From: Paenibacillus sp. FSL R7-0337
GTDB taxonomy: Bacteria > Bacillota > Bacilli > Paenibacillales > Paenibacillaceae
Reading direction: 5' to 3'
Length of the DNA: 64,000 nucleotides
NCBI RefSeq assembly: GCF_037969875.1
Contig: NZ_CP150218.1
Location: 7,006,001 to 7,070,000, forward strand
Within the stretch, counting starts at the first letter, position 1; each line of letters opens with the position of its first letter. Under the pieces are notes generated by a model. The model had not been told where the DNA came from. It did no database searches and worked only from the letters and a program-made list of their open reading frames with translations. The translations under genes were made by a program, and so were the position numbers. Positions 29,853-32,353 of the stretch are shown here, piece by piece.

Positions 29853-30842
29853 ATGACAATAGAAACAGCAACAAGAAATATAGTATTCCGGGCGCTCAAG
29901 GCATACGAATTAGTTTGGACAAAAATTGAATATATAAAGGAATCCGATAGTATCACGTTCAAGATAGAGACGGAAAACAAGCAGAAGCTGCTGCTGCGGA
30001 TTCATGGCGGACGGTGCAGCCGGGAGGAGATTCTGTCGGAGCTGGAATGGCTCAGACATCTCAGTCAGACAGCAGACCTGATTGTTCCTGAAGGGCTGCC
30101 CGATTCAAGCGGCAGTTATATTCTGGAGACTAGAAGTGAAGCTGGCAGTGAAGCACAGCCACTAAACTATGTTACCCTCATGCGCTGGGTCGAAGGGGAG
30201 CATTCAGAGGGCAATCTGCTGGATGAGCAGCTCTACGCTGTAGGCGTTATGCTGGCCGGGATACATGAAGCGGGCAAACAGTTTGTTCCCTCTGGAGAGT
30301 TCACCCGTCCGGTATGGGGAGCAGACAGCTTCCGTAAGGAGTGGGACAAGCTGGAGAAGCACCATGAACTTATGGTCCCGGAAGCTTGGTGGAAGCTTTA
30401 TCAGGCGGCTGCCGTGAAGATCCCGGGTGAACTCAATGCTATGGCGCCGGACCCCGGTAACTATGGTCTGATTCACGGTGATCTGCACGGCGGGAATGTG
30501 GTGTTCGCTGCAGGCAAGCCGCGCGCCATCGATTTCGGCCGCTGCGGCTACGGCTTCTACCTCTATGATCTGGCAGCTGCTCTGCTGGAGCTGTCCCCGG
30601 AGCAGCGCAGGAGCCTGATCGGGGGCTATAGCAGCGTCCGTGCGCTGGAGCCGGATTATGAACGGAAGCTGGAATGCTTCTTCATTATGATCATGATCGG
30701 GAACTACAGCCACCACATCTCTAATCCAGACGAACTCCCCAGCTTGAGGGAGGAGCAGACGTATGCACTGGCCTATCTTAGAGAGTATCTGGCGGACTCC
30801 AGGTTTCTGTTCGATAGAATTCAGCCCATCGAAATCAACTGA
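29853..30842 (+). CDS. Aminoglycoside phosphotransferase (APH)-fold kinase
   Basis: The 329-residue protein has the eukaryotic-kinase-like APH fold. A nucleotide-binding lobe carries LLLRIHGG. The catalytic loop HGDLHGGNVVF starts near residue 208, and AIDFGRCGYG contains the metal-binding Asp227. This family phosphorylates hydroxyl groups of antibiotics, choline, homoserine, fructosamine or spore-coat substrates. The sequence is not close enough to a known resistance enzyme to assign a drug. The ATG at 29853 follows GGAGGAGACAGG. A palindrome at the predicted promoter suggests repressor control. Its 3' end overlaps the 3' end of the convergent hisS gene by 22 bp, with no terminator between them. 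Confidence 0.75.
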   Translation: MTIETATRNIVFRALKAYELVWTKIEYIKESDSITFKIETENKQKLLLRIHGGRCSREEILSELEWLRHLSQTADLIVPEGLPDSSGSYILETRSEAGSEAQPLNYVTLMRWVEGEHSEGNLLDEQLYAVGVMLAGIHEAGKQFVPSGEFTRPVWGADSFRKEWDKLEKHHELMVPEAWWKLYQAAAVKIPGELNAMAPDPGNYGLIHGDLHGGNVVFAAGKPRAIDFGRCGYGFYLYDLAAALLELSPEQRRSLIGGYSSVRALEPDYERKLECFFIMIMIGNYSHHISNPDELPSLREEQTYALAYLREYLADSRFLFDRIQPIEIN

Positions 30843-32101
30843 ACCGCCTCCGCCGCTGTAACCAGTTCCTCGCTCCCCAGCTCCATATCCTTCAGCCGCA
30901 GCTTCTGCACTGCGGCTTCGCTCTCTCCGACCATGATCACGTAGCGGATGCCTTTGGCTGAAGCTGCGGCCAGCGTTTTTTTGAGCCTGCGCGAGCCGGA
31001 GTCCACCGTGGTCCGGATACCGGCGGAACGCAGGCTAGCTGCTGCCGCCAGCGCCTGCGGCATATATCCTCCGATCGGAACAATCAGCACGCTGGAACGG
31101 TCTGCCATATCTGCCGGGCGCTCACCCAGCAGGGCCATGATCGACTCCATACCGAAGGAGATGCCGACGGTAGGGTATTCTATATCATCACGCCCCACCA
31201 ACTTGCCGATGATGGCATCATACCGACCGCCGCCGCCCAGGCTGGAGGGATAGCTGCCTGAAGCATCGAAGATTTCATAGACCGTTCCCGTGTAGAACGA
31301 CAGCCCGCGTGACAAAAAAGGATCGAAGACGCACACATCCGCAAGTCCAACCGCATCAATCAGCTGCTGCAAGGCAAGCACTTCGAGCGTGCCCGGCTGC
31401 TCTTCCAGCTTATATCGTTCTACCAGTTCTGCGAATCCCGGGTTCTCCAGCTCCAGCAGCTCCGAGATCAAGGTAATCGTCTCAGCGGTCAGATTCTTGT
31501 CCGTCAGCTCGACCAGCACCCCGCCGCTGCCGATCTTAGCCAGCTTGTCGAGGGTGAGCATGACAGAGAGCTGCTCCTCCTGCGGCACAAAGGCCGCCCC
31601 CAGAATCTCGCCGAGGAAGCGGCGGTTATTCCACTTCAGCATCACCGGAATTGCAAGTCTGCGGAACACCTCAGCGGCGAGCTGCATCAGCTCTGCTTCC
31701 GCCTGCGGTCCGGCAATACCGACGACATCGGCGTCACATTGCAGGAATTCGCGCAGTCGGCCTTTTTTGACCGGACCATCCCGGAACACCTTGCCGATCT
31801 CATACCGCCGGTAGGGGAATTCAATCCCCGGATTTAAGGCAATCACCTTGGCAAAAGGAATCGTCAGATCGTACCGCAGCCCCAGCCTGCGCCCGCCCTG
31901 ATCGGCCAGCTTGTACATTTCGCGCAGAATCTCATCGCCTCCGGCGTATTTGGAGGTCAGCAGCTCCAGCTCATTCAGCAGGGTCGTCTCCATCGGCTCG
32001 AAGCCGTACAGCTCGAACAGCTCCTGCAGCGTAGTCCGTACCTTCTGGCGGATGGCTTGTTCCCGGCCGAAGTAATCATAAGTTCCTTTAATATTTTGCA
32101 T
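30821..32101 (-). CDS. hisS: Histidyl-tRNA synthetase (class II)
   Basis: The 426-residue protein opens MQNIKGTYDYFGREQ and has class II synthetase motif 2 (KVFRDGPVKKGRLREFLQ), the substrate loop SRGLSFYTGTVYE and motif 3 (GGGGRYDAI followed by GISFGMESI). A C-terminal anticodon-binding domain (SVLIVPIGG to the end) is present, so it is not the truncated HisZ paralogue. It charges tRNA-His with histidine in the cytosol. The loop normally reading GLDYY has Ser in place of Asp and motif 2 has a Lys-Lys pair. These differences suggest a divergent or second HisRS. It is not beside aspS, its usual Bacillus partner. The ATG at 32101 follows AAGGGAG. A leader-peptide attenuator of about 215 nt lies upstream. 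Confidence 0.88.
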   Translation of the reverse strand: MQNIKGTYDYFGREQAIRQKVRTTLQELFELYGFEPMETTLLNELELLTSKYAGGDEILREMYKLADQGGRRLGLRYDLTIPFAKVIALNPGIEFPYRRYEIGKVFRDGPVKKGRLREFLQCDADVVGIAGPQAEAELMQLAAEVFRRLAIPVMLKWNNRRFLGEILGAAFVPQEEQLSVMLTLDKLAKIGSGGVLVELTDKNLTAETITLISELLELENPGFAELVERYKLEEQPGTLEVLALQQLIDAVGLADVCVFDPFLSRGLSFYTGTVYEIFDASGSYPSSLGGGGRYDAIIGKLVGRDDIEYPTVGISFGMESIMALLGERPADMADRSSVLIVPIGGYMPQALAAAASLRSAGIRTTVDSGSRRLKKTLAAASAKGIRYVIMVGESEAAVQKLRLKDMELGSEELVTAAEAVQLISMG

Positions 32102-32138: not shown

Positions 32139-32170
32139 AAAAAACGCGCCGGACCTCATGGTCCCGCGCG
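32139..32170 (-). terminator. Attenuator terminator in the hisS leader
   Basis: On the minus strand, CGCGC-G-GGACC (32170 to 32160) pairs with GGTCC-G-GCGCG (32155 to 32145) around an ATGA loop. There are five plus five base pairs with one G-G mismatch, followed by six T. It ends 38 bases upstream of the hisS ATG and points into the gene, so it must be conditional. Confidence 0.85.
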
Positions 32171-32243
32171 ATTATCTATGCCGCAGGGAGGTCAAACGCG
32201 AAATGCGTTAGCCCGCCCTGAATCAATTCAGGTGTGCTAACGC
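32162..32243 (-). promoter_or_regulatory. hisS attenuator: mutually exclusive hairpins
   Basis: GCGTTAGC (32243-32236), at the leader-peptide stop codon, pairs with GCTAACGC (32212-32205) around a perfect CCTGAAT/ATTCAGG hairpin. The same AACGC (32209-32205) can instead pair with GCGTT (32199-32195), with CAGGG/CCCTG closing that alternative. TCCCTGCG (32189-32182) can pair with CGCGGGA (32168-32162), the 5' arm of the terminator, as antiterminator. Which set forms would depend on where the ribosome halts in the leader peptide. Confidence 0.7.
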
Positions 32244-32290
32244 TGCTTGTGATGATGAAGTTGATTCGTTATGATGGACAAGCGGTTCAT
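32237..32290 (-). CDS. hisS leader peptide with three consecutive His codons
   Basis: On the minus strand an ATG at 32290 opens a 17-codon frame, MNRLSIITNQLHHHKQR, ending in TAG at 32237. The codons CAT-CAT-CAC at 32257-32249 encode His12-His14. AAAGGA, 9-10 bases upstream of the ATG, is a credible ribosome binding site. The stop codon lies inside the first attenuator hairpin arm, just as in enteric his and trp leaders. It starts about 28 bases after the predicted transcription start. The peptide itself is probably functionless; its translation measures charged tRNA-His. Confidence 0.75.
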   Translation of the reverse strand: MNRLSIITNQLHHHKQR

Positions 32291-32324
32291 GTGAATCAAT
32301 TCCTTTCCATCTGGATTACAGCAC

Positions 32325-32353
32325 ATTATAGCGGATCAGGAGCAGCGGCGCAA
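32325..32353 (-). promoter_or_regulatory. hisS promoter
   Basis: On the minus strand TTGCGC (32353-32348), a 17-base spacer and a consensus TATAAT (32330-32325) form a sigma-A promoter. Transcription would start near 32318, giving a leader of about 215 nt. Confidence 0.75.

Follow-up and report, generated by a model that had tools for sequence, protein, structure and literature searches.

A His-codon leader very probably acts as a transcription attenuator upstream of a second histidyl-tRNA synthetase gene in Paenibacillaceae

In the trp and enteric his attenuators, a stalled ribosome masks arm 1 of the leader RNA, and a leader that is not translated leads to termination. For Bacillus, His leader peptides were predicted before hisS* and hisZ in a 2010 survey by Naville and Gautheret, who noted that, with the exception of ermC, leader peptides had until then been demonstrated in Proteobacteria and Actinobacteria alone (PMC2965389). 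Candidate His-leader attenuators were later described, in a 2022 study, before the his operons of the B. cereus group, Peptostreptococcaceae and Erysipelotrichales (PMC9413887). The locus considered here lies in a 64,000-nucleotide stretch of the genome of Paenibacillus sp. FSL R7-0337 (the window, whose coordinates are used throughout); leader and gene are read on the minus strand, and Rfam searches and folding were run at the same site.

The gene behind the leader, hisS2, is a spare gene and not the housekeeping hisS. Its product scores 553.7 bits against the NCBIfam family PRK12420 (histidine--tRNA ligase; curated cut-off 540), comprises a tRNA-synt_His domain and an anticodon domain, carries the archaeal/eukaryote-like LRYDLT motif and shares 24% identity with the canonical HisS of the same genome. 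Judged by its sequence, HisS2 is probably an active enzyme, because it retains the RGL..YT and GGGGRYD motifs of canonical HisS, and with them the 'RGL' Arg that is missing from HisZ, which is encoded elsewhere in the genome. The canonical hisS is located at about G000:C1:2411404-2412663 and is preceded, about 65 nt upstream, by a T-box with the GGGUGGUACC element. The original prediction of a hisS gene without a T-box is thus correct for the gene in the window, with the qualification that this is the second hisS, while the canonical one does have a T-box.

All the parts that had been predicted for the leader, i.e., promoter, ribosome binding site, 17-codon leader, pairing arms and a terminator 38 nt before hisS, could be re-read in the sequence (Table 1). 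The gene upstream of the leader is divergent, and transcription would start from the promoter-like element, the TATAAT-like box of which is found at the equivalent place in most relatives. An SD-like motif ahead of the leader start, required in our leader survey, is present. The leader frame ends in HHHKQR* (asterisk, stop codon), and its stop codon lies inside arm 1, of which GCGTTAGC (32243-32236) is complementary to GCTAACGC (32212-32205) in arm 2. The competing hairpin consists of AACGC/GCGTT and CAGGG/CCCTG, the antiterminator of TCCCTGCG/CGCGGGA and the terminator of CGCGCGGGACC/GGTCCGGCGCG followed by TTTTTT. The 214-nt leader as a whole folds 3.8 s.d. below its dinucleotide shuffles.

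Table 1. Features of the hisS2 leader and gene in the window.
Feature	Position	Strand	Basis and remarks
Promoter-like TTGCGC-17-TATAAT	32325..32353	-	Sequence; TTGCGC box 32353-32348, 17 nt spacer, TATAAT box 32330-32325
Shine-Dalgarno AAAGGA for leader frame	32301..32306	-	Sequence and leader survey
Leader peptide MNRLSIITNQLHHHKQR*, 17 codons	32237..32290	-	ATG 32290; His codons 32257-32249; stop TAG 32239-32237
Arm 1 (GCGTTAGC...CCTG)	32229..32243	-	Overlaps leader stop codon; partner arm 2
Arm 2 (CAGGGCGGGCTAACGC)	32205..32220	-	Alternative partners arm 1 or arm 3; comparative pairing and folding
Arm 3 (GCGTTTGACCTCCCTGCG)	32182..32199	-	Alternative partners arm 2 or arm 4; comparative pairing and folding
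Arm 4 (CGCGCGGGACC)	32160..32170	-	Pairs with arm 3 (antiterminator) or forms the terminator's 5' half
Arm 5 (GGTCCGGCGCG) and U run	32139..32155	-	Intrinsic terminator, ending at 32139, 38 nt before hisS ATG (32101); sequence and pairing in 42 leaders
hisS2, second histidyl-tRNA synthetase, 426 aa, archaeal-like 'RYDLT' type	30821..32101	-	NCBIfam PRK12420

We consider it highly likely that these parts form a ribosome-mediated five-arm transcription attenuator which senses charged tRNA-His and controls the spare HisRS gene. A ribosome extends about 15 nt beyond its P-site codon, and 14 nt separate the first His codon from arm 1. Under a shortage of charged tRNA-His, the ribosome would stall at the first His codons with its front just short of arm 1; arm 1 would then take arm 2, leaving arm 3 free to take arm 4, so that the terminator is held open and hisS2 is transcribed by readthrough. 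When His-tRNA is plentiful, the ribosome would reach the stop codon within arm 1 and cover this arm, whereupon arm 2 would take arm 3, arm 4 would be free for arm 5 and transcription would end. The masking is assigned to the terminating ribosome, and the geometry therefore predicts that an untranslated leader, with arm 1 free, is ON by default.

This switching logic, as put forward in the original prediction (a stall frees arm 1 and is ON, a ribosome at the stop covers it and is OFF), agrees with both the ribosome geometry and a two-state folding analysis, and is well supported by computation. Eighty-three leaders were folded with the ribosome placed either at the first His codon (A site) or at the stop, with 420 dinucleotide shuffles as the control. 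Helix 3:4 forms in 79/83 leaders in the stalled state; in the stop state helix 2:3 forms before arm 4 emerges, and the terminator forms, in 83/83. Both outcomes are combined in 79 of the 83 leaders versus 14 of the 420 shuffles, so that opposite folds for the two ribosome positions are an observed property of these leaders, as are their parts, their conservation and their compensatory pairing. Against the main reading, the terminator persists in 45/83 full-length folds of the stalled state; helix 1:2 does not exclude helix 4:5, and antitermination must therefore be kinetic.

The pairing of the arms was analysed in 42 diverse leaders. In helix 1:2, the eight outer pairs are standard in all 336 cells, with two-sided changes present; the helix as a whole is 93.5% paired, nine of its pairs have changed on both sides, a level reached in none of 500 shuffles, and its covariation is far above that of slid controls. 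Helix 2:3 also shows two-sided changes, fewer than helix 1:2, including a GC to AU swap on both sides in six leaders and, in the NUDIX-type leaders (see below), GGGATGG facing CCATCC. Helix 3:4 is 96.8% paired and nearly invariant, and consequently has no two-sided covariation to support it in the 42-leader set, which counts against the main reading. Terminator helix 4:5 is 94.8% paired. In 42/42 leaders one arm-4 base has its pairing partner in arm 3, but in 23/42 the terminator stem leaves this base mispaired, which suggests that this base is constrained by the antiterminator and not by the terminator.

The leader was present at all 52 hisS2 loci fetched by protein similarity from Paenibacillus, Saccharibacillus, Cohnella and relatives, with extra sequence between leader and hisS2 at one of them (L041). 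A covariance model built from 39 leaders, used to search 346 Paenibacillaceae genomes, matches upstream of 96/96 PRK12420-type hisS2 genes, on the same strand and at a distance of 20 to 749 nt; this count is a prevalence and not an independent discovery, the training loci being from the same family. Since every one of these genes has the leader upstream, the association is more than chance. Weak matches of the model outside the family (L179-L187), on inspection, do not resemble the leader in their layout and were set aside as terminators matched by chance. Comparison with relatives, proposed together with the original prediction, showed the small frame, the stop position and the paired arms to be conserved with compensatory changes; neither this result nor the Rfam search (see below) gave the outcome that had been named beforehand as refuting the prediction. 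The leader is real and conserved, and it is very probably a leader-peptide attenuator.

As far as comparison can tell, the leader frame appears to be translated. Its stop codon has a fixed place relative to arm 1 in 84/88 leaders (one further leader, L043, lacks this stop and ends at the following one), length changes beside the His run are of whole codons and in frame, and the sole leader whose His run is frameshifted, L079, belongs to a damaged hisS2. Towards its N-terminus the peptide differs between leaders in both length and sequence, and the residues outside the sensor codons vary as well. These sensor codons, at positions -6 to -4 before the stop, comprise 198 His, 36 Tyr, 16 Phe, 1 Leu and 1 Arg (n=252); 250/252 are thus His, Tyr or Phe, and none is Asn, Asp, Gln or Pro, though each of these is one base from His. 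At least one His occurs within the last eight codons of 84/84 leaders, and 51 have three or more. Further points against the main reading are the 54/252 sensor codons that do not encode His and three hisS2 leaders (L044, L048 and L138) in which the codon nearest arm 1 is the sole His codon. These three end in FYYHKQR*, where a stall at the His codon would partly cover arm 1 and the sensor may be Tyr.

The same plan recurs in leaders of other sequence. Brevibacillus-like hisS2 leaders (genus inferred) end in QQHHHT*, QLHHHD* and the like and otherwise share little sequence with the window leader; when folded in full, one of them (L117) shows all five arms and both states of the window leader, and the distance from the first His codon to arm 1 is 15 nt in this type versus 14 nt in the window. 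A third type, MPVQQLTFAISHHHIN* and MTMNFVQTYTTKHHHSQ*, precedes PRK12420-type genes on Planococcus and Lysinibacillus plasmids; its arms 1 and 2 and its terminator are clear, and an antiterminator was looked for in it and not found. A plasmid filed under Stenotrophomonas rhizophila (L132, CP065518.1) carries a hisS2 and a leader that hardly differ from their counterparts on a Lysinibacillus plasmid (L131), and its record may be misassigned.

Most leaders precede hisS2. Among 132 strong leader matches in Paenibacillaceae, 36 are not upstream of a hisS2 passing E 1e-100. Downstream of these 36 lies a NUDIX hydrolase gene in 15 (L173-L176, L194-L196, L199, L202, L203 and L220-L224), a gene for a small protein in three (L192, L193 and L197; RFHGNY.., about 125-140 aa in L192 and L193, with no Pfam or NCBIfam match for that of L192), an arylamine N-acetyltransferase-like gene in one (L198:1231-2091, minus strand; leader ...YYYHE*), an S66 peptidase gene in one (L210:2552-3484, plus strand; closest solved structures MccF-like proteins, including BA_5613), a damaged or decayed hisS2 in eight and nothing clear in eight. 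Outside the family, a Bacilli genome has a leader with HHHH, MNRTMPNQLHQLHHHHKQR*, in front of an ABC-F gene of ribosome-protection-like type (L163 and L255:892-2436, minus strand); this copy and those before the S66 and acetyltransferase genes are single cases each. Most of the NUDIX-type copies are in genomes that lack hisS2, and the canonical hisS is present in the four checked genomes that have a non-hisS2 leader and no hisS2. In four records (L206-L209), each from a different genome, a leader ending like ..YYHFNQR* stands before a gene whose product resembles HisRS only faintly and over one stretch; a methyltransferase-like gene comes next.

These copies show that a whole leader-peptide attenuator can end up before unrelated genes, and their target genes, some of which resemble antibiotic-resistance genes, hint at the purpose of the spare HisRS. 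A tentative and rather doubtful reading makes the leader a mobile stress switch, ON by default, that has recruited, in different Paenibacillaceae and neighbours, a regulon against inhibitors of HisRS or of His decoding, the members of which would be the spare HisRS, the S66/MccF-like peptidase, the NUDIX hydrolases, the acetyltransferase and the ribosome-protection-like ABC-F protein. A resistance role against HisRS inhibitors is speculative, and a literature search on natural HisRS inhibitors returned nothing specific; if true, this reading would point to natural HisRS-directed antibiotics as yet unknown.

The copies before the ABC-F, S66/MccF-like and acetyltransferase genes bear also on a different signal, namely that the leader senses translation stress or antibiotics in general and reports ribosomes slowed or blocked on an aromatic/His-rich stretch and not uncharged tRNA-His as such, like leaders of the ermC, msrD and bmrCD types. 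The replacement of His by Tyr or Phe in 52/252 sensor codons (about 20%) and the predicted ON state of an untranslated leader would fit such a sensor. We nevertheless think it quite unlikely in view of the His retained in every one of the 84 leaders, the majority position before hisS2, the Brevibacillus-like leaders that retain HHH without any Tyr or Phe in it, and the variability of the residues beyond the sensor codons. It is far less probable still that the hairpins do no more than terminate transcription and that a functional micropeptide is made from the conserved short frame. An intrinsic terminator and a conserved peptide C-terminus are indeed present, but the divergent upstream gene and the variable N-terminal part speak against this explanation, and the C-terminal Arg-stop lies inside arm 1, so that RNA pairing explains its conservation. 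Control by a T-box or another riboswitch with an incidental small frame, which the usual T-box control of Firmicute hisS and the 26 T-box matches in this genome might suggest, is hardly credible, being contradicted by the conserved frame, stop position and sensor codons and by Rfam, which, in line with the original claim, gives no plausible family match at the leader site, T-box included, even with E up to 10.

The attenuator that very likely governs hisS2 can now be set beside the known systems. The T-box (RF00230) has no covariance-model match at the site, the positive control, the canonical hisS (L024), being matched; it controls that canonical hisS, presumably by transcription attenuation, and, unlike the hisS2 leader, it works by direct binding of uncharged tRNA, with no leader peptide involved. 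The candidate attenuators of PMC9413887 resemble the present leader in their three to five consecutive His codons, their terminator and antiterminator and their occurrence in Firmicutes, whereas they control biosynthesis operons and not a tRNA synthetase, hisS being absent from the main text of that study. The Bacillus hisS*/hisZ leaders of PMC2965389 are similar by description, with a short frame that has a His-codon run before a terminator, a hisS paralogue downstream and a main hisS under a T-box; Paenibacillus is absent from the main text of that survey, and the available part of it gives no switching geometry, Tyr/Phe substitution or spread beyond the hisS family. A class-wide protein search identified no further genus as a source of the Bacillus cereus hisS*. 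The original view that such sensing would be unusual at a Gram-positive aminoacyl-tRNA synthetase gene has to be softened, leader-peptide attenuation of hisS paralogues having been predicted in Bacillus in 2010 (PMC2965389).

No Rfam model covers the hisS2 leader, and the Proteobacterial His leader (RF00514) has no covariance-model match at the site. The principle is already known; as far as the searched literature shows, with its incomplete coverage, the Paenibacillaceae leader family, its geometry, the Tyr/Phe substitutions and the spread to other genes are new. The hisS2 leader resembles the enterobacterial his leader and trp-type attenuators in a leader peptide whose regulatory codons stand in tandem, in its alternative hairpins and in its intrinsic terminator, and it has what is general to attenuators: an SD-preceded frame with clustered relevant codons, and mutually exclusive hairpins that include a terminator before the gene. 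Its geometry departs from the trp/enteric his switching order: there the stall covers arm 1, whereas in the Paenibacillus leader the stall would free arm 1 and the terminating ribosome would cover it, which predicts expression when leader translation fails, opposite to the textbook attenuators. One genome would thus monitor the state of its histidine tRNA in two different ways, by a T-box at the housekeeping HisRS gene and by a translated leader at the spare one.
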